In this document: piece by piece, positions 24,401 through 40,666 of the stretch | Layout of the letters: every line of letters begins with the position of its first letter | Position numbering within the stretch: the first letter of the stretch is position 1 | Assembly (NCBI GenBank): GCA_018883805.1 | Contig: JAHLFK010000005.1 | Coordinates: 1-40,978, forward strand | From: Candidatus Limosilactobacillus merdavium | GTDB taxonomy: Bacteria; Bacillota; Bacilli; Lactobacillales; Lactobacillaceae | DNA length: 40,978 nt | Direction: 5' to 3' | The notes under the pieces: model-generated | Database searches by the model: none | What the model was told of the DNA's origin: nothing | Seen by the model: only the letters and a program-made list of their open reading frames with translations | Position numbers and translations under genes: made by a program

Positions 24401-25573
24401 TTAGTAGATTCCATCGTAAGCCTTTTGGTAAAGGTCAATGATATCTTGCTTAGTACCCTTCCGTGGGTTAGAGAATGCGTTACCATCCTTCAAAGCATTT
24501 TCAGCCATCAATGGGAAGTCTTCTGGCTTAGCACCAATTTCCTTGATTGATGAAGGAATGCCAACAGCCTTGCACATTTCCTTCATTCCTTCAATAGACT
24601 TTTGAGCAGCTTGCATAGTAGTCAAGCCAGTTGTGTCATAACCCATAATTTGAGCTAATTCAGCAAACCGATCTGGGCAAGCAATGATGTTGTACTCTTC
24701 AACAGTTGAGAGTAACAATGCACAACATACACCGTGTGGAGCATCATATTGACCACCAAGTTGGTGAGCCATTGCGTGAACGTAACCTAAGTTGGCGTTG
24801 TTGAATGCCATTCCGGCAAGCATTTCTGCTTCAACCATCTTTGTCCGGGCTTCAACATTGTGACCATTAGCAACAGCTTCTGGCAATGCAGTTTGAATCA
24901 ATTGAATAGCTTCTTTACATTGACTATCCGTGATTGGATTGTGGTCAACTGAAACATATGGTTCAATTGCTTGAACGAAGGCATCACAACCAGTTGCAGC
25001 AGTAACTGACTTTGGAACATCAAGCATTAACATTGGGTCGTTAAATGATACCAATGGAATGTTCCGCCATGAAACAACAACAAACTTCAAGTGATCCTCT
25101 TCGTTAGTAATAACTGCGTGACGGGTTAATTCTGAACCTGTACCTGCAGTAGTGTTAACTGCCATTAGTGGTGGAAGTGGATTTTCAAGAGTTTCAATTC
25201 CGGCTAACTTAGTAATATCGTCACCGTTAGTCAGGATAATTCCGATTCCTTTACCACAGTCGTGAGCGGATCCCCCACCGACAGTGATAATTGAGTCACA
25301 GCCTTCATCTTCGTACATCTTCTTACCAGCTTTGATGTTACGAATCTTAGGGTTAGGTTCTACACCAGTGAAGACTGCGTAGCTAACTCCAGCCTTGTCC
25401 AATGAAGCAAGTGTTTGCTTAACAGGACCATTATCAATGGCAGCTAAGTTATCTTGGGTTACAACCAAAACCTTGTGCATTCCGAGCATTTTGGCACGGT
25501 CACCGATTTTTTCGATTACTCCAGGACCAAAAAAGTTAACACTAGGCATCAGAAAGTCAAATTGTCTATTCAT
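24401..25573 (-). CDS. Iron-containing alcohol dehydrogenase, 1,3-propanediol dehydrogenase type
   Basis: A 390-residue group III alcohol dehydrogenase. The opening (MNRQFDFLMPSVNFFGPG) and length match the DhaT branch, which reduces 3-hydroxypropionaldehyde to 1,3-propanediol and regenerates NAD+ during glycerol co-fermentation. The nucleotide motif GGGSAHD is at 99-105. Metal ligands by family comparison would be Asp197, position 201, His266 and His280; position 201 is Gln (GCDAFVQAIE) where characterised members have His. The ATG at 25573 follows aaggagg, with a good promoter upstream. It is a single-gene unit. Propanediol is the likely product but other aldehydes are possible. Confidence 0.85.
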   Translation of the reverse strand: MNRQFDFLMPSVNFFGPGVIEKIGDRAKMLGMHKVLVVTQDNLAAIDNGPVKQTLASLDKAGVSYAVFTGVEPNPKIRNIKAGKKMYEDEGCDSIITVGGGSAHDCGKGIGIILTNGDDITKLAGIETLENPLPPLMAVNTTAGTGSELTRHAVITNEEDHLKFVVVSWRNIPLVSFNDPMLMLDVPKSVTAATGCDAFVQAIEPYVSVDHNPITDSQCKEAIQLIQTALPEAVANGHNVEARTKMVEAEMLAGMAFNNANLGYVHAMAHQLGGQYDAPHGVCCALLLSTVEEYNIIACPDRFAELAQIMGYDTTGLTTMQAAQKSIEGMKEMCKAVGIPSSIKEIGAKPEDFPLMAENALKDGNAFSNPRKGTKQDIIDLYQKAYDGIY

Positions 25574-25610
25574 TTACAATAACCTCCTTAGATTACTTGA
25601 ATATGTTTTC

Positions 25611-25639
25611 ATTATGAAGCATTGTGAATGACATTTCAA
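25611..25639 (-). promoter_or_regulatory. Promoter of the dehydrogenase with Rex-like dyad
   Basis: On the minus strand TTGAAA (25634-25639), 17 bp and CATAAT (25611-25616) form a good promoter. TTGTGA-N6-TTTCAA (25622-25639) covers the spacer and -35; one half equals the Rex consensus half TTGTGA and the other has mismatches. A TTCATTATGAA palindrome (25609-25619) spans the -10, and a near-copy lies at 25691-25701. Confidence 0.45.
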
Positions 25640-25718
25640 GGAAGATTTGCTTAATTATTATTTAACAAATATACAAAATAGGTCATTTGTTTCATTATGA
25701 GATTTTTAAATTTTCTTA

Positions 25719-26264
25719 TTAGTGTAACTTTGTTAATTTTTCTTCAAATTCAATTCTCAAGAGTTGTGCAACAGAGTCATAAGTATGAAGAATCCTATCT
25801 ACTTCAGCAATTGAATCGGCAGGACTAAATTCTAATTGTAAGTTAGTTGCCAATTGTTTCATGTGAAACCCATTAATTATTAAGCGCATTGCAATTTGTG
25901 CTTGTGTTCCTCCATGGGCGCCAAATGTTACTAAGCTTACTGGCTTATTTTTCCATTCTTTTGATAAGTAATCCAACGCATTCTTCAAAACAGCTGGATA
26001 TCCCCAATTGTATTGTGGAAAGAGAAAGATAAAGCCGTCATAATTAGATATTAATTTACTCCATTCACGAGTATGACTATGTTCATATTGGCCGAGTGCT
26101 GGAAGGCTGCTCTCATCTAAGAATGGTAGCTTTACTGTTCTTAGATCAATTTCATCAAATTCAACTTTATCATTCTCAGCTAACTGTTTTTGCAGCCAAT
26201 CCGCTACCTGTTTACTTCGCCGTCCTGGTCGTGTACTTCCAATAATAATGCCAACCTTTTTCAT
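25719..26264 (-). CDS. NADPH-dependent FMN reductase family protein
   Basis: A 181-residue flavodoxin-fold oxidoreductase. The N-terminal phosphate loop reads GSTRPGRRSKQVADW, and the flavin-contacting PQYNWGYPAVLKNALDYL lies at about residues 80-97, as in the YwrO/ArsH-like and azoreductase relatives that reduce quinones, FMN or azo dyes. I chose the ATG at 26264 over an in-frame one 15 bp upstream because ggaagtgat precedes it. A promoter, TTGTTT-17 bp-TATGAT (26297-26325, minus strand), lies just before it and overlaps the adhesin terminator. It is a single gene with a probable role in redox or xenobiotic stress. Confidence 0.85.
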   Translation of the reverse strand: MKKVGIIIGSTRPGRRSKQVADWLQKQLAENDKVEFDEIDLRTVKLPFLDESSLPALGQYEHSHTREWSKLISNYDGFIFLFPQYNWGYPAVLKNALDYLSKEWKNKPVSLVTFGAHGGTQAQIAMRLIINGFHMKQLATNLQLEFSPADSIAEVDRILHTYDSVAQLLRIEFEEKLTKLH

Positions 26265-26296
26265 AGATATCACTTCCATATATTATTTTCTCTTTC

Positions 26297-26325
26297 ATCA
26301 TAATCTTGAATGCACATAAAAACAA
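26297..26325 (-). promoter_or_regulatory. Promoter of the FMN reductase gene
   Basis: On the minus strand TTGTTT (26320-26325) and TATGAT (26297-26302) are separated by 17 bp, about 33 bp before the start codon. The -35 abuts the T-run of the adhesin terminator, so this gene seems insulated from adhesin transcription. Confidence 0.5.
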
Positions 26326-26362
26326 AAATGAGACTAGCAAAAATTCAGATTTTCCTAGTCTC
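26324..26362 (-). terminator. Terminator of the adhesin gene
   Basis: An 8-bp stem (gagactag 26330-26337 with ctagtctc 26355-26362), extended by a possible inner A-T pairing, is followed on the minus strand by a T-run (26324-26328). It lies 8 bp after the adhesin stop. Confidence 0.75.
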
Positions 26363-26369
26363 TCTCTAA

Positions 26370-29300
26370 CTATTCAGTTTTCTTTTTCTTCTTTACTAAT
26401 CCAAATGTTAGTAGTTGAAGAAGGAGCGTTACTAATACCAGCATTGTGCCTGTTACAAGACCTGGTTCTTGCTTATCACCAGTCTGTGGTAACTGCTGGT
26501 TATTATTCTGAGCAGCCTTTGATTCATCTCCTGCTGTAACATTAACTACATCGCTATTTGCAGTAGCTTTTGTTGCAGCAGTACTAGTTATAACAGCTGG
26601 AGCAGCTACCTGAGATTGACTTGGCTTGGCTGATGCAACTGGTGCTTCAGCTTGAGTATTGTCTGAATCTGCAGGGCGAGTTGCTGCGGCATGACTTCCG
26701 CTAGTAGTTGCTGAAGCTGATCCTGGATTTTCTGGATCTGCTGGCTTATCTGGAGTTACCGGTTTATCCGGGTCTACTGGTTTATCCGGGTCTACTGGTT
26801 TATCTGGATCTACTGGTTTATCTGGGTTCACCGGTTTGTCTGGATCTACTGGCTTATCTGGGTTCACCGGTTTGTACCCAATTTCTACCAATTCATCTTC
26901 AGAATTAACACCAGGAGTTACCGCCTCAACCTTTTCGATTGTTGGTACATAGCCATCAATCTTTTCTGGGATGTATTCTGCCCAACTTGAATCACCATCA
27001 ACTACCCATTCAGTTTCGCTAATTACCTCACCTGTGATTGGGTGCTTGGTAACTTGCTTCTTAAACGTTACCGTCTGGGTAATTGTCTTCTTACTACCAT
27101 CTGGCAATGTTACTGTAATTACCCGATTAACTGTCTTAGTTTCATCACCAACCTGGTGAGCTAAGTAGTTAACATGGTGTTCTTGATCCGCAGTGTTTTC
27201 ATCTACTACTGAAGAATTAATCTTGTCTATATCCGCAACGTGACCGTCTACCGATGGAACAGCAAATTCTTCAAATTGACCAGTTGTCCAGTTTCCATAT
27301 GTTACCTCCCCAGTTTGTAGGTTTGTTGTCTTGTCCCGATGAAGAGTTACTGTATGAGTAATTGTTTCAGTCCGCCCATCAGGATGGTGAAGATGGATTA
27401 CTCGGTTAACATCTTTCGACTCTGTTTCTGTCTTGTAGTTAGCCTCATAGCGCACTTCAACTTCAAAGTCTTTAGAATCTGGAGTAACTGTTTGTGATGG
27501 AACAACTGACATACTTGGCTTCTTACCATCGATTTCGGAAACTTGGTATTCCTCGAAAGTTAAGCTATTTTCACGCCAATTTTCTGAGATTGTTTCCCCG
27601 GTCCATGGGTTAATAATCTTTTCGTACGTGAATGTAACTGTTTGTGGAACTTCCTTAACAGTACCATCTGGTAAGATTAGCTTGATTGTCCGCGTTACTG
27701 TCTTCTCACTAGTTTCAATTCTATTTTCACGATAACTAATGTAGACATGTTGATCTTCTGTGTTCGCATTTGGAGTGAATGCTTCAAGCTTTTCCTTGTC
27801 TGGAGTATAACCATCGAGCTTTTCGATAGTGTATTCTTCCCAAGTTGCATTACCATCAACTACCCATTCAGTTTCACTAATAATCTCACCATTAATTGGA
27901 TGACGGGTAACCTGCTTCTTAAACGTTACGGTTTGAGTAACTACGGTTAAATGACCATCTGGCAATGCCACTTTAATTATCCGATTAACCGTCTTAGTTT
28001 CATCACCAACCTGGTGAGCTAAGTAGTTAACGTGATGCTCTTGATCTGCAGTACTTTCATTTACTTCTAAAGAATTAATCTTGTCCACATCAGAAACATG
28101 ACCATCTATTTGTGGGATAACAAACTCTTCAAAGAAATGACCTGTTGACCAATTTCCGTATGTTACTTCACCAGTTTGTAAGTTAGTTATCTTGTCCCGG
28201 TGAAGGGTTACTGTGTGGGTAATTGAGTCAGTCCGCCCATCAGGATGGTGGAAGTGGATTACTCGGTTAACATTCTTCGATTCTGTTTCTGTCGTGTAAG
28301 CCGCTTCATAACGCACTTCGACTTCAAAGTCTTTAGAATCTGGAGTAACTGTTTGTGATGGAACAATTGATATACTTGGCTTCTTGCCATCGATTTCAGG
28401 AACTTGATATTCTTCGAAAGCTAAGCTATTTTCACGCCAATTTTCTGAGATCACTTCCCCAGTCCATGGGTTAATAATCTTTTCGTACGTGAATGTAACT
28501 GTTTGCGGAACTTCCTTAACAGTACCATCTGGCAAGATTAACTTAATTGTTCGCGTTACTGTCGTTTGACTGGTTTCAACCTTGTTTTCTTGGTAACTAA
28601 TGTTGATCTGCTGATTTTCAGCATTCACGTCCGGAGTAAATGCTTCAACCTTGTCGATATTTGGTGTGTAGCCATCAATCTTGTCTGGAGTGTATCCTGC
28701 CCAATTTGTATTGCCATCAACCATCCACTCGGTTTCACTAATTACTTCTCCAGTAGTTGGGTGACGAGTAATTTGCTTCTTGAAAGTTACGGTTTGCGTA
28801 ATTGTCTTCTTACTACCATTTGGTAATGTAACCGTGATTATTCGATTAACTGTCTTAGTTTTATTATCAACTTGGTGAGCTAAGTAGTTAACATGGTGTT
28901 CTTGATTTGTAGTATTTTCATCTACTACCAAAGAATCAATCTTGTCTACGTCTGAAACGTGACCTTCCACTGGTGGAACAACATATTCTTCAAATTGACC
29001 TGTTGACCAGTCGCTGTATGTCACTTCACCGGTTTGTAAGTTAGTCACCTTGTCCCGGTGAAGAGTTACTGTTTGCGTAGTTGTTGTAACATCCCCATTA
29101 GGATGGTGAAGATAAATTACCCGATTAACTTCCTTTGATTCTGTTTCTGTCGTATAAGCCGCTTCATAACGCACTTCGACTTCAAAATCTTTAGTATCCG
29201 GCGTAACTGTTTGTGATGGAACAATTAACATGCTTGGCTTCTTGCCATCGATTTCAGGAACTTGATATTCTTCGAAAGCTAAGCTATCTTCACGCCAATT

Positions 29301-31610
29301 TTCTGAGATTGTTTCCCCAGTCCACGGGTTAATGATCTTTTCGTACGTGAATGTAACTGGCTGTCGAACTAACTGAATAGTACCATCTGGTAAGATCAAC
29401 TTAATTGTCCGCGTTACTGTCGTTTGACTGGTTTCAACCTTGTTTTCTTGGTAACTAATGTTGATCTGCTGATCTTTAGTATTTACATCCGGAGTAAATG
29501 CTTCAACCTTGTCGATATTTGGTGTGTAGCCATCAATCTTGTCTGGAGTAAATGCTGCCCAACCTGCATCACCATCTACGGCCCATTCAGTTTCGCTAAT
29601 TACCTCACCAGTAACTGGGTGCTTAGTAACTTGCTTCTTAAAAGTCACCGTTTGCGTAGTTGTCTTCTTACTACCATCTGGCATAGTTACGGTAATTACT
29701 CGGTTAACTGTCTCCGTTTTATTAGTAACTTGGTGAGCTAAGTAGTGAATGTTTACTACTTGATCCACTGTGTTTTCATCAACTGCTGTGGCGTCAAGTT
29801 TTTCAATATCTGCAACGTACCCACCTACCGTTGGAGTGACATATTCTTCAAATTGGCCAGTTGTCCAGTCACCGTATGTCACTTCACCGGTTTGTAAGTT
29901 AATCACCTTGTCCCGGTAAAGAGTTACTGTTTGCGTAGTTGTTGTAACATCCCCATTAGGATGGTGAAGATAAATTACCCGGTTAACTTCCTTTGGTTCT
30001 GTTTCTGTCTTGTAAGCCGCTTCATAGCGAACCACTACTTCAGAATTTTCAGAATCTGGATTAACTACAAGTCGATGAATATATGTTATATCAGGCTTTT
30101 TCCCGTCAATTTCAGCTGGCCGGTAATCATTAAGCATAATGCCGTCCTCATTCCAAGCACCATAACTAATAATTTCACCGTTAGCATTTTTAATTATTTG
30201 ACGAGTAAAGACTGCTGTTTGTCTTACATAATCGATCGTGCCGTTCGGTAAGATCAACTTAATTGTCCGGGTTACTGTTCGTTTATCAATCTCAGTTTTA
30301 TTTTGTGGATAACGAATTTCTACAACTGAACTTTCAGTGTCAGGCGTTACTGTCATTTCAGCAACAGATGTCTTATCAGGCATAACGCCATCTACTTCTC
30401 CAAATTCGCGACCTTCAAACTTATTGTTTCCTGTTGTCCATTCATCGTTAATCACTTTATTAGTCCATGGATTAATTGTAACGGTATGAGTAAATGTAAC
30501 AGTTTGTTTGATTTCCTTAGTGGTGCCATCAGGTAAGTACACTATGATTGTCCGTGTGATCTCTTTATCTTCAGTTGTTACTTTGTTTTGCTGCATCCGG
30601 ACATTAATAGTTACCGGACCTGAATCATTATTTACTGTTGAACCTTGTACAACTGTCTGCTCAGGTGAATAGCCATCCTTTGGAACAACCGTATAGTCGT
30701 TGAAAGTTAAGCTTGGTTGCCAGTCTTCAATAATCTCAATTACCGTACCTGTATAAAGATCATATTTTACTTTTCTTGTAAATGTAACTTCTTGGCGATT
30801 TAATACTTCGGTAGTAGTCCCGTAGTTTCCGTAGATGATCTGCTCTACTTTTTCTATTTCGTCTCTCACTTCAGTAGCATGGCGGACGAAAATTGAGATA
30901 CTTTGGTTCAGGTTGCCATCAATTATGAACTCACTATCCTGACCATCACAGATAATCAAGTTCGCAGGTAAGTATTTCTTAATTTCATCCATTGTCACCT
31001 TTGTGCCTGGAGCTCCGGGGATGTAGATTGGATCATTCAATACTAAATTGAAATTATCCACATCTTGGAATTTAATTTCCACCTGATTTTCTTGAGAAGA
31101 ATCGGAAGTAGGATCACTAGTTGGCGCACTGGAAGGCACTACAACTTCATCACTTGCAGATGGAACGTTAGATGATACATCTGAACTTTCACTTACTGCT
31201 GGAATTTGTGATGAAGCATCTGTACTGTTCCCCGGAGTAGCACTGGTTACTGGATGTGCATCAGATACCGGAGTTTGTACCGCCGCGGCTGAGTCTGCCA
31301 CCACTTGCGAAGTAGCTTCGCTCGAAACTGGTGTCGTTTCTGCTGAACTATTACTGACTACTTCATCATTATTAACTTGTTCTGTATTTTCATTCGTTGT
31401 TATTTCTGCTGATTGGACTGCTGGCAATTCTGTTGGAATTACTTCTTGTCCTTGATTAGCAACTTCATCGGCTGAAGCACTACTCGCGCCCATAAATGTT
31501 AATCCTAAAAGCACGGATGCAACACCGATTGTTAATTTACGTAGGCCAAATCGTTGTTTTATAGGTTGGCCTTTTTGGTTCATCATTTGAACGTTTTTCT
31601 TTGATAACAT
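26370..31610 (-). CDS. YSIRK/LPXTG wall-anchored adhesin with Mub-B2-like repeats
   Basis: A 1746-residue surface protein. Its signal peptide (about 1-48) carries a YSIRK variant, FGLRKLTIGVASVLLG, followed by a Ser/Thr/Val-rich stretch (about 49-176) and a MucBP-like domain (about 177-248). Fourteen repeats of 90-97 residues resemble the Mub B2 domain, with a V-x-R-x-I start, P-D/N-G turn, T-G-E...W and a GY/GKxP middle. From residue 445 they alternate in three types (starts TVTRTIKLIL, EVNRVIYLHH, TVNRVITVTL), giving four supra-repeats. Eight PDKP-type hexapeptides (1582-1629), a Ser/Ala-rich linker, LPQTG (1707-1711), a hydrophobic span and a KKKKK tail complete a sortase substrate. Mucus binding is inferred. 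The ATG follows caggaggat. A WalR-like box lies upstream. Confidence 0.93.
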   Translation of the reverse strand: MLSKKNVQMMNQKGQPIKQRFGLRKLTIGVASVLLGLTFMGASSASADEVANQGQEVIPTELPAVQSAEITTNENTEQVNNDEVVSNSSAETTPVSSEATSQVVADSAAAVQTPVSDAHPVTSATPGNSTDASSQIPAVSESSDVSSNVPSASDEVVVPSSAPTSDPTSDSSQENQVEIKFQDVDNFNLVLNDPIYIPGAPGTKVTMDEIKKYLPANLIICDGQDSEFIIDGNLNQSISIFVRHATEVRDEIEKVEQIIYGNYGTTTEVLNRQEVTFTRKVKYDLYTGTVIEIIEDWQPSLTFNDYTVVPKDGYSPEQTVVQGSTVNNDSGPVTINVRMQQNKVTTEDKEITRTIIVYLPDGTTKEIKQTVTFTHTVTINPWTNKVINDEWTTGNNKFEGREFGEVDGVMPDKTSVAEMTVTPDTESSVVEIRYPQNKTEIDKRTVTRTIKLILPNGTIDYVRQTAVFTRQIIKNANGEIISYGAWNEDGIMLNDYRPAEIDGKKPDITYIHRLVVNPDSENSEVVVRYEAAYKTETEPKEVNRVIYLHHPNGDVTTTTQTVTLYRDKVINLQTGEVTYGDWTTGQFEEYVTPTVGGYVADIEKLDATAVDENTVDQVVNIHYLAHQVTNKTETVNRVITVTMPDGSKKTTTQTVTFKKQVTKHPVTGEVISETEWAVDGDAGWAAFTPDKIDGYTPNIDKVEAFTPDVNTKDQQINISYQENKVETSQTTVTRTIKLILPDGTIQLVRQPVTFTYEKIINPWTGETISENWREDSLAFEEYQVPEIDGKKPSMLIVPSQTVTPDTKDFEVEVRYEAAYTTETESKEVNRVIYLHHPNGDVTTTTQTVTLHRDKVTNLQTGEVTYSDWSTGQFEEYVVPPVEGHVSDVDKIDSLVVDENTTNQEHHVNYLAHQVDNKTKTVNRIITVTLPNGSKKTITQTVTFKKQITRHPTTGEVISETEWMVDGNTNWAGYTPDKIDGYTPNIDKVEAFTPDVNAENQQINISYQENKVETSQTTVTRTIKLILPDGTVKEVPQTVTFTYEKIINPWTGEVISENWRENSLAFEEYQVPEIDGKKPSISIVPSQTVTPDSKDFEVEVRYEAAYTTETESKNVNRVIHFHHPDGRTDSITHTVTLHRDKITNLQTGEVTYGNWSTGHFFEEFVIPQIDGHVSDVDKINSLEVNESTADQEHHVNYLAHQVGDETKTVNRIIKVALPDGHLTVVTQTVTFKKQVTRHPINGEIISETEWVVDGNATWEEYTIEKLDGYTPDKEKLEAFTPNANTEDQHVYISYRENRIETSEKTVTRTIKLILPDGTVKEVPQTVTFTYEKIINPWTGETISENWRENSLTFEEYQVSEIDGKKPSMSVVPSQTVTPDSKDFEVEVRYEANYKTETESKDVNRVIHLHHPDGRTETITHTVTLHRDKTTNLQTGEVTYGNWTTGQFEEFAVPSVDGHVADIDKINSSVVDENTADQEHHVNYLAHQVGDETKTVNRVITVTLPDGSKKTITQTVTFKKQVTKHPITGEVISETEWVVDGDSSWAEYIPEKIDGYVPTIEKVEAVTPGVNSEDELVEIGYKPVNPDKPVDPDKPVNPDKPVDPDKPVDPDKPVDPDKPVTPDKPADPENPGSASATTSGSHAAATRPADSDNTQAEAPVASAKPSQSQVAAPAVITSTAATKATANSDVVNVTAGDESKAAQNNNQQLPQTGDKQEPGLVTGTMLVLVTLLLQLLTFGLVKKKKKTE
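26724..26867 (-). repeat. PDKP hexapeptide-encoding tract
   Basis: Eight tandem 18-bp units encode VNPDKP, VDPDKP, VTPDKP and finally ADPENP. The Asp-to-Asn differences and silent changes show the units are not freshly copied. Such proline-rich, charged tracts span the peptidoglycan in anchored proteins and commonly change unit number. Confidence 0.9.
26868..30278 (-). repeat. Four tandem supra-repeats of about 858 bp within the adhesin
   Basis: Units at 29421-30278, 28563-29420, 27702-28562 and 26868-27701 each encode three Mub-B2-like domains in the same order (types A, B, C; 96, 93-94 and 97 residues, the last one shorter). The middle two units are the most alike. The first is more diverged, especially its type A domain. 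Two older single repeats (30564-30866 and 30279-30563) precede them. Confidence 0.85.
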
Positions 31611-31725
31611 GTATTATCCTCCTGTGAGTTTCTAGTAAAAAGTAGCAATATCATAAAGTTACTTCTTATCTATCCGCACTATTCATAGGGGGAAAACCTA
31701 TTACTTAAGCTTTTAGATATCTTTC

Positions 31726-31753
31726 TGTAAAGTTTTTGTAACCTTTCCGTAAC
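31726..31753 (+). promoter_or_regulatory. WalR-box-like hexamer array
   Basis: Three hexamers, TGTAAA (31726-31731), TGTAAC (31737-31742) and CGTAAC (31748-31753), follow each other with exactly 5 bp between. The first two match the WalR (YycF) consensus TGTWAH-N5-TGTWAH with no mismatch; the third has one. The array lies about 115-145 bp upstream of the adhesin start and beyond the rlmH terminator. Its strand is opposite to the adhesin, which WalR sites tolerate. Confidence 0.6.
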
Positions 31754-31824
31754 ATAATATACTATATCGCTTTCACGGAGGAAATATTATTTAAGGCGAC
31801 TATAAGCTTTCTTATAGATTTAAA

Positions 31825-31866
31825 CAAAAAAGTTCACAAATGAACATACTCCATTTGTGAACTTTT
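31825..31866 (-). terminator. Terminator after rlmH
   Basis: A perfect 15-bp stem (31828-31842 with 31852-31866) and 9-nt loop, followed on the minus strand by a T-run (31825-31831). It begins 5 bp after the rlmH stop codon. Confidence 0.9.
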
Positions 31867-31870
31867 AATT

Positions 31871-32350
31871 CTATTTATGATAAGGCAAGCCATTAATTAT
31901 TGTAAAGGCTCGGTATATCTGTTCTGTTAGCACTAGCCGCATTAATTGGTGAGGTAATGTAAAGCGACCAAAAGAGATTTGTGTATCAGCGCGTTTGAGG
32001 ACTTCAGGACTTAACCCTAGTGAACCACCAATTACAAAGGTGATATCACTATGACCATAGGTAGTCAGCTGGTTGATTTCCTTTGCAAAGTCTTCAGATG
32101 TTCGTTCCTTTCCTTTAATTGCTAAGGCATAAACATATTCTTTATCCTTAATCTTTTCTAGTATTCGCTGCCCTTCTTTGGCCATTACCTCATCCATTTC
32201 AGCCTGGCTTAATGATTCCGGAGCTTTCTCATCCGGAACTTCAACAATCTGAAATTTACAAAAACGACCAAGCCGCTTTGAATATTCAGCGATTCCTGCC
32301 TTAAAATATTTTTCTTTGAGTTTTCCAACGCCAATGATTTTAATATTCAA
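31871..32350 (-). CDS. rlmH: 23S rRNA pseudouridine-1915 N3-methyltransferase
   Basis: A 159-residue SPOUT-fold methyltransferase that methylates pseudouridine 1915 in helix 69 of 23S rRNA in assembled 70S ribosomes. The N-terminus [14 protein letters not shown], the knot loop [10 protein letters not shown] and the C-terminal [18 protein letters not shown]...LPYHK are characteristic. The best start is TTG at 32350: it gives the family's usual length and first residues and has ggtgg about 5 bp upstream. Longer in-frame GTG starts (to 32392) would add a peptide encoded by DnaA-box repeats and are unlikely. The gene is apparently on its own transcript. Its last codons contain TATCATAA, as in the staphylococcal SCC attachment site. 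Confidence 0.93.
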
Positions 32351-32351
32351 T

Positions 32352-32696
32352 TTATCCACCACTTTCAACAATTTATCCACAGAGTTATCCACAAGTAATT
32401 ATATTTTGTTCGCGATTTACCGAATGTTCGGCAGTAAACAGTTAATGAAAACGTTTTCTGTTTTAGAAGTTTTCCACAGTTATCAACAGAAACAACCGTT
32501 CGCTGCGGATTCTCAAATTCCTTGATACATAAGGCCTTAGCTAAAGGATACTTTAATTTAATCCACTTATTCACACATTGTTCAGCTACCTGTGGATAAG
32601 TTTTGCACACTGATAATTGCTGTTATTTCAACACCTTTACAATAGTAAAATATTTTGGCGCTTTTTTCCACCGACTTTTCCACAAGATAATTCACA
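32352..32696. promoter_or_regulatory. DnaA-box cluster
   Basis: Exact TTATNCACA boxes occur at 32373-32381, 32385-32393, 32567-32575 and, inverted, 32591-32599. One-mismatch boxes occur at 32352, 32470, 32480, 32601, 32676 and 32688. Several neighbours are 12 bp apart (32373/32385; 32664/32676/32688). The cluster fills the gap between rlmH and the pgpA-like gene, which otherwise holds no convincing ORF. No dnaA, dnaN or rpmH lies in the window, and the genes on both sides run in the same direction, so this is more likely an auxiliary DnaA-binding region than the replication origin. Confidence 0.75.
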
Positions 32697-32703
32697 GCCA
32701 AAT

Positions 32704-32750
32704 TTTACCTAAAAATAACACGGATTGTGGTAGTGAGATCACAATCCGTG
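32704..32750 (-). terminator. Terminator of the pgpA-like gene
   Basis: A perfect 11-bp stem (cacggattgtg 32719-32729 with cacaatccgtg 32740-32750), followed on the minus strand by a T-rich tract (about 32708-32716). It lies 55 bp after the stop. Confidence 0.75.
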
Positions 32751-32805
32751 GTTAACTGAATAATTACTTTTCTTTCCTAACTGAACATTCGCTTTTTACT
32801 AGAAA

Positions 32806-33303
32806 TCAAGCATACTTATGGGCAATCTTTCCACAAACAGCGGCAACAATTGCGGAAAGAAGATCATCAATAAAAGTATTAACATGCTCATCTGACGTAT
32901 CAAACTTCTTCATAATCCCTGATTTGACCCGATCAAAGTATCCAAAATTTGTTGTCCCAATTGTTCCATAGATTGTCGCAATCTGAAGTGCGATCGTCTC
33001 ATCTACACCAAAGACTCCAGCATCATTCTTTATGATTGAAGAAAGAGGCTCCTTTACCTGTCCCTCTTCTGTTAATCGGTCAAGTTCCAACATTACCATC
33101 GCGTTATTCATTAATTCTCGTTTATGCATAACATCAACAATCGCTTCTTCACACTCTTCTAGGGTAACTTGTGGTTCATATTGACGCTGAGTTTCGTATG
33201 CAATTTTTGCTAAATCAATTTGCTTTACCCCTCGTTCAGCCAGCCGATCAACAACAAATTGATAGGCCTTGGTATCTGGATATTTGAATTTTGGATTATT
33301 CAC
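32806..33303 (-). CDS. Phosphatidylglycerophosphatase A family protein (YutG-like)
   Basis: A 165-residue soluble-looking protein of the firmicute PgpA/YutG family, which dephosphorylates phosphatidylglycerol phosphate to phosphatidylglycerol, the substrate for cardiolipin synthases. Visible features are QIDLAKIAYETQRQYEPQVTLEEC, DETIALQIATIYGTIGTTNFGYFD and FIDDLLSAIVAAVCG, the acidic helices of this family. I chose the GTG at 33303 because ggggtg sits about 8 bp upstream and the resulting length matches YutG; earlier in-frame codons lack support. It lies between htrA and the DnaA-box region and has its own terminator. Confidence 0.78.
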   Translation of the reverse strand: MNNPKFKYPDTKAYQFVVDRLAERGVKQIDLAKIAYETQRQYEPQVTLEECEEAIVDVMHKRELMNNAMVMLELDRLTEEGQVKEPLSSIIKNDAGVFGVDETIALQIATIYGTIGTTNFGYFDRVKSGIMKKFDTSDEHVNTFIDDLLSAIVAAVCGKIAHKYA

Positions 33304-33344
33304 TTTAACACACCCCACATTTGATAATATCCTTATTGTAATAC

Positions 33345-33378
33345 AAATCCGCATCGTCCCATGAGATGATGCGGATTT
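33345..33378 (-). terminator. Hairpin after htrA
   Basis: A perfect 11-bp stem (aaatccgcatc 33345-33355 with gatgcggattt 33368-33378) begins 9 bp after the htrA stop. The T-run on the minus side is poor, so it may be a weak terminator or a transcript-stabilising hairpin. Confidence 0.55.
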
Positions 33379-33386
33379 TCCTTAAT

Positions 33387-34640
33387 TTAGTTAGCCTTAG
33401 TTAATTTTAACGTTGCAGTATGTTGTTGGCCATCACGGTAGTAAGTTACCTTCGCTGTATCACCAACTTTGTACTTATACAGGGCTGATTTTAACGAACT
33501 AGTATTAGTAACCTTAGTATCGCCAAATTTTGTAATTACATCGTATTGTTGTAAGCCAGCAGTTTGTGCTGTTGAGCCGCTTTGAACATCCATAATAACG
33601 ACACCCTTAGTGACACTTGATGGGAGTTTCAAAACTGACTTTTGTTGATCAGTTGTAACCCGACTCAAGTCAATCATGCTAATTCCAAGTGATGGTCGCG
33701 AAATCTTACCATTCTTGATTAGCTGATTAATAATCTTGACAACTTCATTACTTGGAATAGCAAAGCCCATCCCTTCAACAGAAGAACCATCATTACTACC
33801 AGCCAGTTTCATTGAGTTAATCCCAATTACTTGACCAGCCATGTTGATTAGCGGACCACCTGAATTACCGGAGTTGATTGCTGCATCAGTTTGAATAACT
33901 GATGTTAACGTACCATCTGTGCCACTCTTTAGTGTCCGACTCTTTGCTGAAATGATTCCCTTAGTGACAGTATTAGCATATTCACTTCCCATTGGTGAAC
34001 CGATTGCTAAAACATCTTGTCCAGCTTCAATGGAATTAGAATTACCAAATTCTGCAACTGACTTAACGTCTGCAGAATTAATCTTCAGAACGGCCAAATC
34101 GGTTGCTGAGTCAGATCCAATCAAATCAGCGTTAACCTTTCGTCCGTTGCTTAGGATTACTTGTAATGCATTAGATCCTTTAACAACGTGATTATTTGTT
34201 ACAACGTAGGCTGAATTGCCACTCTTTTTATAAATTACCCCAGAACCTTCACTTGCAGTTTGAAGTTTCCCGGAATTTTGAGAGCTGCTTGAATCATCAG
34301 AACCACCACTTATCTGGCCACCAAACATTCCCATGATTCCTTGATCAGACGATTGAACTTCTTGTTTATTGATAACACTAACAACCGCGTCCTTAGTTGA
34401 ATTATAGGCTTTGGTCGATTCATTATTTAAACTAGCTTTATTTTTATTAACCTTAGTTCCCCCAGCCTTATTTGATCCTGCAGGAACATTGGTACTCGAA
34501 TTTTGGATATGGTTCTCAACCATATTTCCGATTCCTAAAGAAAGGCCACCACCAATTAATCCGGCAATTAACCCTACTCCAGCAACTTTTAACCAAAAAT
34601 TTCTTTTGCTATTTTGTGAATCTCGACTCTGATCACTCAT
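33387..34640 (-). CDS. htrA: Surface serine protease HtrA (DegP family)
   Basis: A 417-residue trypsin-like protease anchored by one N-terminal helix (about 17-38), acting outside the membrane on misfolded or secreted proteins. A low-complexity Ser/Gly/Asn linker (about 95-125) precedes the protease domain. The triad is His151 (TNNHVV), Asp181 (SATDLAVLK) and Ser260 (GNSGGPL). A C-terminal PDZ domain (about 320-415) includes GVVIMDVQSGSTAQTAGL. The start lies behind ggggga. It follows yycJ by 98 bp, as in other lactobacilli; an 11-bp-spaced direct repeat in that gap suggests control by a response regulator. Confidence 0.95.
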   Translation of the reverse strand: MSDQSRDSQNSKRNFWLKVAGVGLIAGLIGGGLSLGIGNMVENHIQNSSTNVPAGSNKAGGTKVNKNKASLNNESTKAYNSTKDAVVSVINKQEVQSSDQGIMGMFGGQISGGSDDSSSSQNSGKLQTASEGSGVIYKKSGNSAYVVTNNHVVKGSNALQVILSNGRKVNADLIGSDSATDLAVLKINSADVKSVAEFGNSNSIEAGQDVLAIGSPMGSEYANTVTKGIISAKSRTLKSGTDGTLTSVIQTDAAINSGNSGGPLINMAGQVIGINSMKLAGSNDGSSVEGMGFAIPSNEVVKIINQLIKNGKISRPSLGISMIDLSRVTTDQQKSVLKLPSSVTKGVVIMDVQSGSTAQTAGLQQYDVITKFGDTKVTNTSSLKSALYKYKVGDTAKVTYYRDGQQHTATLKLTKAN

Positions 34641-34697
34641 TAGCCGACTCCCCCAATCTAATATCTCTTAATCATCGTCTTCAATATAGCGTTAATT

Positions 34698-34714
34698 TGT
34701 GAAAATTTAGTGAA
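34698..34714 (+). promoter_or_regulatory. 11-bp-spaced direct repeat upstream of htrA
   Basis: TGTGAA (34698-34703) and AGTGAA (34709-34714) are spaced as in sites for OmpR-family regulators. They differ from the WalR consensus at one and two positions. A TATATT lies about 9 bp to the left on the minus strand, but no clear -35 was found. Confidence 0.35.
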
Positions 34715-34738
34715 GTTTTATTTGTCTTTTAATGATCC

Positions 34739-35545
34739 TTACAGCGTTAAAAGTTGACTTGGCTTATCTGGTTCAGCATCAGTCAGCTTGAAATCATGAT
34801 TAACTCCAAAATCATGTTTTTCCATCATACTAGCAACTGTAAGGTGAGCTAATGAGCGCATATTATTATGCTGACTACGGTGACCAAGGAAAATTTGCTT
34901 CGTCCGTGAGCCGACAACATCCATTAAAGCATCAGCACCTTCTTCATTTGAGAGGTGTCCTGTATCGCTAAGGATTCGTTGCTTTAAAGGCCATGAATAA
35001 GGACCCATCCGCAACATCTCGGTATCATGATTGCATTCCATCAGATAGGCATCAGCGTTGCGAATTGTTCCCTCAACTCGATCAGAAACGTATCCTGTAT
35101 CAGTAATTATACAAAAGGTCTTGTTATTATGATGAACTTGATAAAACTGAGGCTCTGCAGCATCATGTGAAACTGCAAAACTTTCAACATCAATATCGCC
35201 AAGATCCTTAACACTATTAGGAGCAATTATGTGCTTTTGATCTAGTGCAATCTTACCAACCTTACTGGCCATTGCATCCCAAGTTCCCTTATTTGCATAA
35301 ACATCCATCCCATAACGGCGGGCTAAAACACCGACACCATGACAGTGATCAGTATGTTCATGAGTCACAAAAATAGCATCAACGTCTGCCAATGAACGAT
35401 CAATCTTAGCCATTAGATTCTCTATTTTCTTACCGCTAAGACCAGCATCAATTAAGATGCGGTGTTCATTAGTTTCTAAGTAGGTCACGTTTCCCGTGCT
35501 CCCGCTTGCCAAAATGCTATAGCGTAATGGATCTTGTTCTGTCAC
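34739..35545 (-). CDS. yycJ: Metallo-beta-lactamase fold exonuclease YycJ/WalJ
   Basis: A 268-residue cytoplasmic metallo-beta-lactamase-fold protein, conserved at the end of the walRK operon. The zinc motif THEHTDH is at 61-67, with further metal residues in VSHDAAEP, TDTGYVSD and LGHRSQHN. Homologues are double-strand-specific 5' exonucleases, and the Streptococcus homologue affects cell division and WalRK output. It starts 14 bp after the yycI stop, so it is in the same operon. Which substrate it uses here is not visible. Confidence 0.93.
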   Translation of the reverse strand: MTEQDPLRYSILASGSTGNVTYLETNEHRILIDAGLSGKKIENLMAKIDRSLADVDAIFVTHEHTDHCHGVGVLARRYGMDVYANKGTWDAMASKVGKIALDQKHIIAPNSVKDLGDIDVESFAVSHDAAEPQFYQVHHNNKTFCIITDTGYVSDRVEGTIRNADAYLMECNHDTEMLRMGPYSWPLKQRILSDTGHLSNEEGADALMDVVGSRTKQIFLGHRSQHNNMRSLAHLTVASMMEKHDFGVNHDFKLTDAEPDKPSQLLTL

Positions 35546-35559
35546 TACAGATTACTCCT

Positions 35560-36402
35560 TTACTTTCGATTTAGTGCCTCCGTGTTAACACTAGTAGTTG
35601 TGTTCTTCATTATTGTGCTGTTAAACGCGTTAATCGAAATCCGTTCAACTGCTCCTGAGTTCTTCGTCTTAATCTCTGTTACCCAGGTTGGAATATACAC
35701 GTTCCGATTGTCAGTATTAGTACTTAGTAGCCGCGAATAACCTAATTGAGCCCAGCGGATTCGCGAATTATTAGGAATTTGGTTATGTTTATATAACCAA
35801 ATTACAGCCCGTTTTTGACTAATTGTCGCTGTTTCTGGCCGCAATATCTTTACTCCCTCAAGGAAGGTTTGCGTATAACCTGTGACTTCATGGTTGGCAT
35901 TTAAACGAAACCGAAGCTGTCCGTCGCCATTCATTACTGGACGACCTTCTACCATTTGCGTATAGACAACAACTCGTCCTGTAGAGAGATAGGGATTATA
36001 ACGGTAATAACGCCCCAGTGCAATTTGATGATTATTATGAACTAATTCGTTTAACCGTACATTAGGCGTCTCAATGTTCACATTAAGGGGCTCGTTAAAT
36101 TCACTTGTTAAGGTATTGTTTGAAAAGTGAGTTTCCTGATTACGGAGTCGCGAAGAAGCATTATCTAATTGACCATCTTCAGTTGAACGATAACCAGAAA
36201 GATAATATCCCTTCCGTTGCTTACTACTCAACTTACCGAAATTAATTGAATCATCTTTCATTTCCTTCAGGACTAATGATGAACGGCTTCCCTGATTATT
36301 AGTAACGATGAAGCGGTTCTCAACTAATAATGAACTAGCAATAATTACGTCAAACAAGAGGAAAGCAAAGAAAAAGATCCACTGAATTCGTTTAAAGTTC
36401 AT
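35560..36402 (-). CDS. yycI: WalRK regulatory membrane protein YycI
   Basis: A 280-residue protein with one N-terminal membrane helix (about 8-27) and an extracytoplasmic domain of the YycI/YycH type. Together with YycH it contacts WalK and modulates its activity. The sequence GRPVMNGDGQLRFRLNANHEVTGYTQTF is typical of the C-terminal lobe. Its start lies 14 bp after the yycH stop, behind gaggaggc. Sequence divergence in this family is high, so identity relies strongly on synteny, membrane topology and length. Confidence 0.9.
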   Translation of the reverse strand: MNFKRIQWIFFFAFLLFDVIIASSLLVENRFIVTNNQGSRSSLVLKEMKDDSINFGKLSSKQRKGYYLSGYRSTEDGQLDNASSRLRNQETHFSNNTLTSEFNEPLNVNIETPNVRLNELVHNNHQIALGRYYRYNPYLSTGRVVVYTQMVEGRPVMNGDGQLRFRLNANHEVTGYTQTFLEGVKILRPETATISQKRAVIWLYKHNQIPNNSRIRWAQLGYSRLLSTNTDNRNVYIPTWVTEIKTKNSGAVERISINAFNSTIMKNTTTSVNTEALNRK

Positions 36403-36416
36403 TTTTCAATGCCTCC

Positions 36417-37709
36417 TCACTTTTGTAATGTCGTGTAGTCAACCCAGTGTCCGTGGTACTCAACAAAGTAGGTTGGGGTTAGCTTAACTGCACTGTTATC
36501 ATTAGTATTTTGCTTCCACAAATAACCAACTCGGATTCCTTTAACATCCTTCAACCGATTACTTGTCCGTAATTGATTGAAGACAGTCGTCGTTGATGGC
36601 AGACGAACTGGTTTTTGGTTAATCGGCAATGGAACTTGGATACTGTATAAACTTAACCAAGTTGTATTCATCCCGTTAACTTTTGAAGACATTCGAATAT
36701 CTCCATAACCACGATCGTTAAAAATAGGGAATCCTTCTACATAGCTTCGATAGTTAATCGTCCGTTGGTGGTTACTGATGCCATCATAGCGTAAGTTATC
36801 CATTGGAATTCCAGTTTTGGCAATTCGACTAAAGAAGTAACTATAAAGCTGACTCGAACTAGGCACATCATCATGATTAACATAGTTTTCATAACGAATT
36901 GTGCCATTTTGCCGATTATAAATTAACCGTTTATTTTCACCATCACGATAAATGGTCGTATTTCCTTCTTCTTCGGCTGAGATTGAAGATTGCTTATTGG
37001 TACTAATCAAATTTTGACTTAAAGTATCAATATTTTGTGCAGTAACTTGATATCCAAAAACTGGCAAAGTAAAGCTCTTTGGGTATAAAAGCATTGTTTG
37101 ACCATGGATAATCTTATGATCGACCGGAACCTTACTTGTCCCCTTAATGATTGATTTCAAGTCCTCGTCGCTCTTCGATTGGTTAATCCGTGTCCGGTAA
37201 ACCTTATAGCCATGATCCGCTAATAGATAAATATTCCGCGGATTGTTCAATGGAATTAAAATATGATCAATTTGCTTCACGCGACTAGTATCAATCGATT
37301 GTGAAAACGTCTCATTAAAGATCGTTCCCGTCACACTATCTGGGTAACTTACCATCAAGGAATTCGGTTGATGCAGGTAGCTAAGGTAAACGTCACTGTT
37401 TTCACTCTTAACCAAACTAGCGCGTCCTAATTGGCATGTTCGCAACTGATGACGTACCGTTGCAATTAAGTTTTTCCGGGAACTATACAACAGGTATTGC
37501 TGTTGAGATGGATCAACATGAACTATTTGTGTTGGTAAGTAAAGATCACCAATTGATTGAGTTGTATTAAGGTTTCGGGAAGTAGAACTATCTCGAGTTC
37601 GTTCGTATTGAATCGGATTATACCAAATCGACGCGGTTAATAATAAACTAATTATTACCACAACGGCTAATGCGATCGCTAACCAATTAGTCTTGATCTT
37701 TTTGATCAT
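36417..37709 (-). CDS. yycH: WalRK regulatory membrane protein YycH
   Basis: A 430-residue protein with a short cytoplasmic start (MIKKIKTNW), one membrane helix (about 10-28) and a large extracytoplasmic domain, as in Bacillus YycH, which forms a complex with YycI and WalK. I chose the ATG at 37709, after aagggg at 9 bp; upstream in-frame ATGs at about 37718 and 37730 are possible. It overlaps the walK end by 23 bp, indicating translational coupling. Longer versions would read into the walK coding sequence and have no ribosome binding site. Confidence 0.9.
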   Translation of the reverse strand: MIKKIKTNWLAIALAVVVIISLLLTASIWYNPIQYERTRDSSTSRNLNTTQSIGDLYLPTQIVHVDPSQQQYLLYSSRKNLIATVRHQLRTCQLGRASLVKSENSDVYLSYLHQPNSLMVSYPDSVTGTIFNETFSQSIDTSRVKQIDHILIPLNNPRNIYLLADHGYKVYRTRINQSKSDEDLKSIIKGTSKVPVDHKIIHGQTMLLYPKSFTLPVFGYQVTAQNIDTLSQNLISTNKQSSISAEEEGNTTIYRDGENKRLIYNRQNGTIRYENYVNHDDVPSSSQLYSYFFSRIAKTGIPMDNLRYDGISNHQRTINYRSYVEGFPIFNDRGYGDIRMSSKVNGMNTTWLSLYSIQVPLPINQKPVRLPSTTTVFNQLRTSNRLKDVKGIRVGYLWKQNTNDNSAVKLTPTYFVEYHGHWVDYTTLQK

Positions 37710-39555
37710 CCCATTCATCCCCTTCTTCATATGGTACATATGGTAAGGAAATATAGAAGGTTGAACCCTTACCTTCAACACTATCAACCCAAATTTGGCC
37801 GCCAAGCATATTAACGACTTCCTTAGAAATGGCAAGACCTAGACCTGTACCACCTTGCTTACGGCTCCGTGCCTTATCAACCCGGAAGAACCGATCAAAG
37901 ATGTGTCCCAAATCTTTCCGTGGAATTCCCAGTCCCTGATCAGAAATACTCATGATCACATGGTTGTGGGTTTCCAAAAGCCGGGCAGTAATCACCCCAC
38001 CGTCTGGGGAATACTTGATCGCGTTATTCATAATATTATCAATAACTTGCGTAAACTTATCAGTATCAATCTCTACCCAGAGGTCTTTCTTAGTGAAGAA
38101 CCGCTCGATTGTATACTTCTTACTCTTCGGATCCTCTTCCTTTTTAATAATCATGTCAAAGCGATCCAAAATGTAATTGAAGAGTTCGTTAATATTGACG
38201 TATTCAAGGTTTAATTTAGTCGTTCCGGCATCCATCCGCGATAGGCTCAGCAAATCGTTAATCATCCGGATCATCCGTTCAGTTTCATCCTGAACAACCT
38301 TAAGGAATTGAGGTGCAATCTCTTTGTCTTGCCAAGCACCATCGCTTAGTGCTTCAACATAACTCTTAACACTAGTTAATGGAGTCCGCAGTTCATGTGA
38401 AACATTAGAAACAAACTCCTTACGTTCCTGTTCCTCTTTTTGTTGACTGGTAACGTCATGAAGGACACAGACCAGACCACTAACAAAACCTGATTCACGT
38501 TGAATTGGTGAGAAGTAAGCATTTAGGATCAAGTTACTTCCTGAGTTCGACATGTCGAGAATCATTTCTTTTTGCTCACTGTTAACGAGTTGTCGAACTG
38601 TATAGTCATGACGAATATCAAGAACATCAATGATTGACTTACCAATCAATTCATCTTCATGATCAACTCCTAATAACTGGAGAGTCATATTATTTACAAT
38701 CGTTACGTTTCCTCGTCGATCAGTAGCTAAAACCCCATCAGACATGTGGGAGAGAACGCTATCCAACCGCCGTCGTTCAGAATCACTAGACTCTTGGGCC
38801 TCTTCAACACGAACTGACAAGTTGTTGACCGCCCCAGCTAATTGACCTAATTCATCATTTCCCATTACCCGTACTTGACCAGAGAAATCACCACGGGCAA
38901 TCCGTAATGTTTGTTTCCGCATTTCCTCAATTGGCCGAGTTATTTCCTGGGAAATAATAATAGCTAGTAGCAGGCCAATCACAATTGTAATCAAGGCAGC
39001 TGACAAGTAAATCAACGTAATACTATTAATATTAGAATAGACACTTTCTAGACTTGCTCGTAGATAGACAACCCCGACAACGTTATTGTTGTTATTATCA
39101 ACCAGCGGAATAATATTAACGTAGTACCGCGTATGGTTGCTATTATCATAAACATTTTCGGTATGTGATCGGTTATTAACCAATGTTGTCTTGATTGCTT
39201 GATCGGTCGTCTTCTGTCCAATCATATTTCGGTTATCAAAGTTGCTCGTTCCCCGGACGACGCCTTGACTATCGATTACCCGAATTTCCGAAATGTTATT
39301 ATTATTCACTTCAGATAAAATTTTCCGAATCTTACGGTTGGCCTTACTATGGTTGGAGCTTATTAATTGCTCACTCAATGAGTTATCAACGTAAGATGGA
39401 AGTTCAATTGTTTGTTTAAATGTATTTAGGTTTTGATGCTCCAATTGACGCACAAAAACCGCCCCAACGCATTCCATCGTTAACATCAACATTAACGCGA
39501 AAACGAGGGCGATTTTGAACCGGATCGATTGATAGAATTTTAATTTGCTGTTCAC
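37687..39555 (-). CDS. walK: Essential sensor histidine kinase WalK
   Basis: A 622-residue membrane kinase of the cell-wall homeostasis system. The order is TM1 (about 14-34), an extracellular Cache/PAS-like sensor (about 35-178), TM2 (about 180-202), HAMP (about 203-256), PAS (about 262-372), HisKA with His387 in FVSNVSHELRTPLTS, and HATPase with the N box DNIMNNAIKYSPDGG and G boxes DQGLGIP and GGTGLGL. The two membrane spans and extracellular sensor place it with bacilli and lactobacilli rather than streptococcal WalK. It starts 13 bp after walR and overlaps yycH. Confidence 0.97.
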   Translation of the reverse strand: MNSKLKFYQSIRFKIALVFALMLMLTMECVGAVFVRQLEHQNLNTFKQTIELPSYVDNSLSEQLISSNHSKANRKIRKILSEVNNNNISEIRVIDSQGVVRGTSNFDNRNMIGQKTTDQAIKTTLVNNRSHTENVYDNSNHTRYYVNIIPLVDNNNNNVVGVVYLRASLESVYSNINSITLIYLSAALITIVIGLLLAIIISQEITRPIEEMRKQTLRIARGDFSGQVRVMGNDELGQLAGAVNNLSVRVEEAQESSDSERRRLDSVLSHMSDGVLATDRRGNVTIVNNMTLQLLGVDHEDELIGKSIIDVLDIRHDYTVRQLVNSEQKEMILDMSNSGSNLILNAYFSPIQRESGFVSGLVCVLHDVTSQQKEEQERKEFVSNVSHELRTPLTSVKSYVEALSDGAWQDKEIAPQFLKVVQDETERMIRMINDLLSLSRMDAGTTKLNLEYVNINELFNYILDRFDMIIKKEEDPKSKKYTIERFFTKKDLWVEIDTDKFTQVIDNIMNNAIKYSPDGGVITARLLETHNHVIMSISDQGLGIPRKDLGHIFDRFFRVDKARSRKQGGTGLGLAISKEVVNMLGGQIWVDSVEGKGSTFYISLPYVPYEEGDEWDDQKDQD

Positions 39556-39568
39556 AACTGGCTAGCCT

Positions 39569-40276
39569 CTAATTTTGATCAGGATTTGCTAAGTAGTAAC
39601 CAACACCGCGACGAGTAATTAACCATTGCGGATGACTTGGATTATCCTCAATCTTTTCCCGCAACCGCCGAACAGTAACATCAACTGTTCGAACATCACC
39701 AAAGTAATCATAGCCCCAAACTGTTTGGAGAAGGTGTTCACGATTAATTACTTGACCAATATGTTCCGCAAGATAGTGCAGTAATTCAAATTCACGGTGA
39801 GTTAAGTTAATATTTTCACCGCGCTTAGAAACAGTATATGCTTCTGGGTGAATTACCAAATCGCCTACTTGGATGTCAGTATTATTATCTTCCTCTGCTG
39901 GTGCTTTGACAGCTGCTTGACGTCGCAAGTTAGCTTTTACCCGTGCCACTAATTCACGGTTAGAGAATGGCTTAGTGACATAATCATCGGCACCTAGTTC
40001 AAGCCCAAGGACCTTATCCAATTCAGAATCCTTAGCAGTAACCATAATAATTGGTGTTGTATGCTTAGCCCGAACCCGCTTGGCAACTTCAAGGCCATCA
40101 ATCTTTGGTAGCATTAAGTCTAAAATAATTAAATCTGGCTTTTCACTTTCTACCTTTTCAAGTGCTTCTTCACCATCAAAAGCAACGACAACTTCGTAAC
40201 CTTCTTTTTCAAGATTAAACTTGATGATATCAGAAATTGGCTTTTCATCATCAACAACTAAAATTTTCTTTGCCAT
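39569..40276 (-). CDS. walR: Response regulator WalR (OmpR family)
   Basis: A 235-residue response regulator. Its receiver domain (about 4-117) has the acidic pair Asp9-Asp10, phosphoacceptor Asp53 ([13 protein letters not shown]), Thr in MVTAKD and Lys in YVTKPF. The winged-helix DNA-binding domain (about 135-232) contains [16 protein letters not shown] and TRRGVGYYL. It binds TGTWAH-N5-TGTWAH sites before wall hydrolase and surface genes. I chose the ATG at 40276, with ggagg 11 bp before it; an in-frame GTG 18 bp upstream starts within that site. It heads the walRK-yycHIJ operon. Confidence 0.97.
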
Positions 40277-40445
40277 ATCAATGCTTACCTCCACATAGGT
40301 ATTATTGATTATTGATTATTAATCATTCATTCGTTTTCAATATTAAAGGACCGAAACCACGAAGATTACAGTCCTAATTCGTAATTTCTCTCTGTACGAC
40401 ATAAAAGGCGAAAACTGACTATTAACGGCCTTTTACTTTGTAAAT

Positions 40446-40454
40446 ATTATACCA
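40446..40454 (-). promoter_or_regulatory. Extended -10 promoter of the walRK operon
   Basis: On the minus strand TGG-TATAAT forms an extended -10 element (hexamer 40446-40451) with no good -35. Start near 40439 would give a leader of about 160 nt before walR. That leader contains a possible 6-bp stem near 40408-40437 and ATTATTGATT-type direct repeats near 40300-40325. No riboswitch or T-box was recognised. Confidence 0.5.
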
Positions 40455-40490
40455 CATCGGTAATAGATCTATTTAATTTGCAACTTATTG

Positions 40491-40519: not shown

Positions 40520-40548
40520 TATATATGTTCTGATTGAACAAGTTATAT

Positions 40549-40662: not shown

Positions 40663-40666
40663 GTGC

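Follow-up and report, generated by a model that had tools for sequence, protein, structure and literature searches.

A conserved DnaA-box cluster upstream of rlmH in Limosilactobacillus as a candidate DnaA-bound control region

What purpose could a dense group of DnaA boxes serve on a stretch of chromosome that carries no dnaA? The question is raised by a window of 40,978 nucleotides, the whole stretch of DNA that was analysed, from Candidatus Limosilactobacillus merdavium (assembly GCA_018883805.1, contig JAHLFK010000005.1), which forms contig C47 of a 70-contig draft genome (1.36 Mb, 82% complete). Within it, 345 bp at 32352-32696 hold ten DnaA boxes with at most one mismatch, four of them exact and six with one mismatch, arranged as follows.

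32352..32696, no strand assigned: DnaA-box cluster of 10 boxes (box scan; positions kept in relatives)
Starts 32373, 32385 and 32567 on the plus strand and 32591 on the minus strand: exact TTATNCACA boxes (box scan)
Starts 32352, 32470, 32480, 32601, 32676 and 32688: one-mismatch DnaA boxes (box scan)
32352..32360, plus strand: one-mismatch box TTATCCACC, abutting the rlmH start (box scan)
32373..32393, plus strand: two exact TTATCCACA boxes in tandem, 12 bp apart, forming the proximal pair, 23-43 bp 5' of the rlmH start
32470..32488, plus strand: two one-mismatch boxes TTTTCCACA and TTATCAACA, 10 bp apart (box scan)
32567..32575, plus strand: exact box TTATTCACA (box scan; position conserved in the alignment)
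32591..32599, minus strand: exact box TTATCCACA in the opposite orientation (box scan; position conserved in the alignment)
32601..32609, plus strand: one-mismatch box TTTTGCACA (box scan)
32676..32696, plus strand: two distal one-mismatch boxes TTTTCCACA and TAATTCACA, 12 bp apart (box scan)

This count confirms the four exact and at least six one-mismatch boxes of the original prediction, while its "several exactly 12 bp apart" comes down to two same-strand pairs at that start-to-start distance (32373/32385 and 32676/32688); spacings of 10 bp are seen in 32470/32480 and, on opposite strands, in 32591/32601. Chance enrichment of boxes in AT-rich DNA is so improbable that we regard it as already refuted: in its favour, there is no excess over the window as a whole (55 boxes with at most one mismatch, 55.8 expected), but none of 300 dinucleotide shuffles of the window reached the cluster's count, the fullest 345 bp never exceeding 2 exact boxes or 6 with no more than one mismatch (4 and 10 in the cluster), and the boxes are constrained in relatives, both in alignment and in their presence across loci.

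The cluster fills the gap between a PgpA-family gene and rlmH, both of which lie on the minus strand, so that the flanking genes are co-directional as predicted.

31871..32350, minus strand: rlmH, SPOUT methyltransferase (PF02590; domain match)
32398..32403, minus strand: possible -10 element TATAAT of rlmH, just before the proximal pair (by eye)
32720..32749, minus strand: 10-bp inverted repeat followed by T-rich sequence, the likely terminator of the pgpA-like gene (read from the sequence)
32806..33354, minus strand: PgpA-family gene, 5' of the cluster (domain match)

Open reading frames were listed for positions 24000-40978, and the minus-strand order runs from a response regulator and a WalK-type kinase through yycH, yycI, a YycJ-type hydrolase gene, htrA and the PgpA-family gene to the cluster and rlmH, htrA and YycJ being named from their domains. 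An adjoining htrA and rlmH are described for several Gram-positive bacteria in PMC12826053. The four best named matches to RlmH are all from Limosilactobacillus (92-96% identical), with L. mucosae at 89% and L. gastricus at 82%, which places the draft genome in that genus. A consensus promoter scan found no promoter for rlmH; the possible TATAAT element is absent from its output and is not well conserved in the genus. The inverted repeat at 32720..32749 was read directly, the automated scan having returned without it. Between 31500 and 33500 no known RNA in Rfam was matched, and small inverted repeats between the boxes, which appeared by eye to covary, gave no consistent signal in a stem search against shuffles. 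Beyond rlmH, the minus strand encodes at 26370-31610 a repetitive surface-type protein of 1746 residues with an LPQTG motif near its end, and two isolated exact DnaA boxes (30304 and 31054) lie inside this gene.

We then asked whether the cluster could be a relocated or second replication origin, or the remnant of one. No dnaA, dnaN or rpmH had been seen in view, and all three are indeed on another contig, C5, which carries a standard origin with an rpmH sequence, dnaA, dnaN, a gene for a YaaA-type S4 protein, recF, gyrB and gyrA (dnaA alone was found by search, and the others were named by sequence recognition). Exact boxes lie on C5 at 18159, 18202 and 18213 between dnaA and dnaN, with four more at 19745-19931 upstream of dnaA, and in the dnaA-dnaN gap a box is followed by CTACTACTT, which is DnaA-trio-like, and by an AT-rich run. 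The cluster resembles this oriC in having the same boxes at a similar density, its four exact boxes being comparable to the 3 and 4 of the two oriC halves. Nevertheless, an origin at the cluster is very improbable, given that a normal oriC with box, trio-like run and AT-rich stretch exists on C5, whereas at the cluster no unwinding unit was found and neither dnaA nor dnaN adjoins. A strict scan for a box followed by three trios within 40 bases, which misses three of nine true oriC loci, recovered 6/9 of these and 0/32 rlmH upstream regions, and the highest AT count per 40 bp is 31 at the cluster against 37 at oriC. The suggestion of a relocated origin remnant is therefore not supported, whereas the statement that this is not a standard bidirectional origin holds; the cluster resembles a regulatory site more than a second place of initiation.

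The original prediction was to fall if box positions were not conserved among close relatives, and they are conserved. We set the threshold for a cluster, after the data had been seen, at two or more exact and at least four total boxes in the 450 bp upstream of rlmH, and 31 of the 32 genus loci sampled (from 48 rlmH loci found) pass it; elsewhere in 80 named loci 5 of 917 tiles do so, some of which may be shifted clusters. In 13 genus sequences, picked for their shared layout from 25 aligned, box columns are 95% identical compared with 54% elsewhere, a figure that somewhat favours the box columns since these are defined by the presence of a box. Seven box positions hold a box with at most one mismatch in 13/13 of these sequences, among them 32470, 32480 and the first distal position (32676). 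Layouts differ in genus members L003-L005 and L022, and a proximal pair, spaced 12-13 bp and no more than 110 bp from rlmH, is present at 21/32 genus and 39/80 named loci. Judged by its sequence, the cluster is very likely to bind DnaA.

Outside the genus, 34/43 loci of the family, 38/49 of the order and 20/52 of the class reach the threshold, and none of 27 loci from other classes of the phylum does. These loci come from the best-scoring RlmH matches and from selected genomes, in most of which a single contig carries both dnaA and rlmH; they are not a random sample and form part of the 121 family, 118 order, 200 class and 199 other-class genomes searched. Among the named loci, a set that overlaps with the others in that some species are the same, 65/80 pass, including L. 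mucosae, Lactiplantibacillus plantarum EGD-AQ4, Levilactobacillus, Lentilactobacillus, Ligilactobacillus, Pediococcus acidilactici and Weissella, as well as Enterococcus thailandicus, Tetragenococcus halophilus, Listeria farberi, Exiguobacterium, Lysinibacillus and Priestia aryabhattai. The 15 below threshold comprise four Lacticaseibacillus (all four named loci of that genus are without the cluster), one Lapidilactobacillus, one Paenibacillus, two Trichococcus and the Trichococcus-like L299; Enterococcus gallinarum, E. timonensis and Enterococcus sp. MMGLQ5-1; the Lactobacillus MAG L276 and Mesobacillus L318, both of which have 1 exact box and 5 or 6 with one mismatch; and L314, whose upstream DNA, just 50 bp, is too short for a verdict. 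The layout is also shared across the named loci: of the exact boxes no more than 110 bp from the rlmH start, 72 point one way and 8 the other, and same-strand spacings of up to 30 bp are most often 12 bp (55 pairs), followed by 21 bp (33 pairs).

The surroundings of the cluster vary. In Enterococcus and Tetragenococcus htrA is divergent and the cluster still lies by rlmH, as it does in Weissella and Pediococcus, where htrA was not detected in the fetched upstream DNA. That the cluster stays by rlmH though its surroundings differ favours a role tied to this gene. In three Weissella loci (L270, L271 and L272) exact boxes reach to about 880 bp upstream of rlmH, which makes the cluster longer there than at most other loci examined. 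Conversely, in the Trichococcus-type loci L301, L302 and L299 the cluster lies 2.5-2.9 kb upstream of rlmH, at about positions 80-480 of the loci, with TrkA- and TrkH-like (ktrA/ktrB-like) genes on the other strand in between in L301, to which L302 and L299 align there; a cluster can thus persist without being the promoter of rlmH. L299 comes from contig MUZD01000006.1, whose record bears the name Sedimentibacter sp. SX930; over 3.4 kb it shares 89% identity with Trichococcus L301, and its label or assembly looks wrong.

Two further elements lie between the boxes and raise the possibility that the region chiefly serves other regulators, LexA-like or PurR-like proteins that bind CGAAC elements, with the DnaA boxes secondary.

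32420..32431, minus strand: CCGAACATTCGG, a non-box footprint as conserved as the boxes (genus alignment)
32490..32502, minus strand: CGAACGGTTGTTT, resembling the genus LexA box, one base from a DnaA box

We consider this explanation improbable, although CGAACATTCG matches the boxes in its conservation (98% in the 13 aligned sequences). Of 283 upstream regions 25 contain it, and all but one of these belong to the genus (24 loci, in which some species are represented twice; the stray is L070), with the element at about 80 bp from rlmH, whereas the DnaA boxes extend across the Bacilli. The core resembles the lactococcal PurBox, but as a PurR site CCGAACATTCGG was rejected: that PurBox is AWWWCCGAACWWT, the bases preceding the core disagree with it, and the 12-mer, present as a single copy in three of the four genomes searched and absent from the fourth, is always at the cluster and not at a purine operon. 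Similarly, a LexA-like box of the GAACNNNNGTTY type is kept at 25/32 genus loci, where 0.9 would be expected were the loci independent, which they are not, but it is rare outside the genus (8/43 family loci, with 1.6 expected, 3/49 order, 0/52 class and 2/27 other loci). Since lexA promoters in the genus carry CGAACGTACGTTTG or close variants (8/9 genomes), LexA control of the cluster region may occur, and SOS control, to go by these motifs, is possible.

The draft contains 23 copies of the strict box TTATCCACA, 7 of them at oriC and 3 at the cluster; the single-contig 2.0-Mb genome G033 contains 25 (4 at oriC, 6 at rlmH and 15 scattered), and G028 contains 21, with 4 at oriC and 4 at rlmH. 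In all three genomes searched, two or more TTATCCACA per 500 bp occur only at oriC and at the rlmH cluster, a result that could miss groups of other box variants, since only TTATCCACA was counted genome-wide. Direct TTATNCACA pairs with a gap of at most 30 bp are confined in the draft to oriC and the cluster, the proximal tandem pair being one of two tight direct pairs in that genome and the other lying at oriC. Such a pair is present in 13 of 20 genomes searched and in none of the remaining 7, which include genus members G003, G013 and G034; the same pattern read backwards matched in 2/20.

The cluster had been described as lying away from dnaA, which holds for the contig of the window only: in 8 of the 9 genus mates examined (both genes on one contig, distances between domain matches), rlmH is 23-37 kb from dnaA and on the same strand. 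In family f107, however, the cluster lies by rlmH at 142-344 kb from dnaA in all five genomes. A rule by which the cluster is lost when rlmH is far from dnaA was considered and rejected as only a trend, presence being 27/39 below 60 kb, 9/15 at 60-120 kb and 10/23 beyond (77 of the 80 genomes searched for dnaA; three, whose rlmH row was not listed, are left out). The genus member G034 has rlmH 454 kb from dnaA; similarity to the cluster region is limited there to the last 30 bp before rlmH, and no second copy of that region was found in its genome. Homology in G034 (L028 and L217) is cut inside the proximal box, and its lexA is 22 kb from dnaA compared with about 743 kb in G033; this genome carries a chromosome rearrangement.

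Taken together, the explanation we prefer is that the cluster combines the 5' control region of rlmH with a chromosomal DnaA-binding site, and would be the positional counterpart of the yydA cluster of Bacillus subtilis, a gene that we take to be rlmH. We rate a DnaA-bound control region of the yydA/rlmH type, which also titrates DnaA, at about an even chance of being right. Starting from the observed boxes, their conservation and their place, we infer binding, repression and titration as follows: DnaA molecules would bind the boxes cooperatively; since the tandem pair, 23-43 bp from the rlmH start, coincides with where transcription probably begins, DnaA would repress rlmH when plentiful; and the cluster, as the sole strict-box group besides oriC in the three genomes searched and near oriC in most genus mates, would soak up DnaA soon after initiation. 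The density far above shuffles, the conservation of the box columns (95% against 54%), the presence at 31/32 genus and 65/80 named loci (5 of 917 background tiles), the shared orientation and 12-bp spacing of boxes, the place by rlmH in differing surroundings and the B. subtilis findings on yydA argue for it; the Trichococcus-type loci with a cluster apart from rlmH, the proximal pair at just 21/32 and 39/80 loci, the absence from the Lacticaseibacillus loci, the 30-bp remainder in G034, and the promoter missing from the scan count against it.

The strongest alternative is a DnaA titration or timing site, in which bulk binding delays re-initiation at oriC while rlmH is a mere neighbour whose control is incidental; we regard this as quite plausible, if short of an even chance. 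As the only strict-box group besides oriC in the three genomes searched, and near oriC in most genus mates (8/9 at 23-37 kb), the cluster would be expected to titrate DnaA, and the three Trichococcus-type loci hold it apart from rlmH. According to a review (PMC5295017), B. subtilis has six DnaA-box clusters outside the origin, initiates early when lacking all six, and is partly relieved when one is restored. Titration fits less well with the several families in which the cluster is hundreds of kb from dnaA and still adjoins rlmH, and with the single orientation kept by boxes near rlmH (72 against 8), which titration alone does not need. Given rlmH adjacency in varied settings on one side and the Trichococcus separation on the other, neither promoter control nor titration alone fits every case.

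More broadly, the cluster may reflect an old circuit of the Bacilli in which DnaA directly controls rlmH and couples ribosome maturation to replication, reduced to a single cluster outside oriC in Limosilactobacillus, a proposal that we make only tentatively. Such a circuit would have persisted in groups as far apart as lactobacilli, enterococci, Listeria, Exiguobacterium and Lysinibacillus. As Limosilactobacillus seems to have one cluster besides oriC, deleting it could tell titration and promoter control apart and so put the titration model to the test. Conservation beside rlmH suggests a link between DnaA and ribosome modification, of which we found no discussion in our searches of the open-licence literature. 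These likewise yielded no publication on the conservation of the rlmH DnaA-box cluster, on rlmH with DnaA boxes or orfX/Staphylococcus with DnaA boxes, or on DnaA boxes together with DnaA binding in Lactobacillus chromosomal replication; the kind of cluster is known from B. subtilis, and it is the breadth of its conservation that we did not find in print there.

Among known systems, E. coli datA may be an analogue: it too is a non-coding DnaA-box cluster, and like it the present cluster could lower the available DnaA, though we know of no gene context that the two share. datA is reported to work in DnaA-ATP hydrolysis with IHF. DARS1 and DARS2 of E. coli may be analogous as non-coding DnaA-binding sites outside oriC; they are reported to turn ADP-DnaA back into ATP-DnaA.

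The original prediction had also drawn a parallel with Bacillus DnaA-binding clusters, which is right and closer than claimed: the yydA cluster of B. subtilis consists of several DnaA boxes outside oriC, directly upstream of what is presumably rlmH, on the origin side of the chromosome. In PMC4447404 eight regions are reported to bind DnaA with high affinity in vitro, and that upstream of yydA is among them (7 sites, apparent Kd 0.16 uM); DnaA also appears to repress the yyzF-yydD operon directly. A review (PMC8203912) names yyzF-yydABCD among the gene sets under direct DnaA regulation. The two differ in that yydA is on the other arm, rlmH being downstream of dnaA in 22 of 30 Lactobacillaceae-family genomes tabulated, and in that B. 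subtilis has six clusters outside the origin compared with one strict-box group in each of the three genomes searched here. Finally, DnaA is reported to bind the B. subtilis region in vitro, whereas the cluster described here is known from its sequence.
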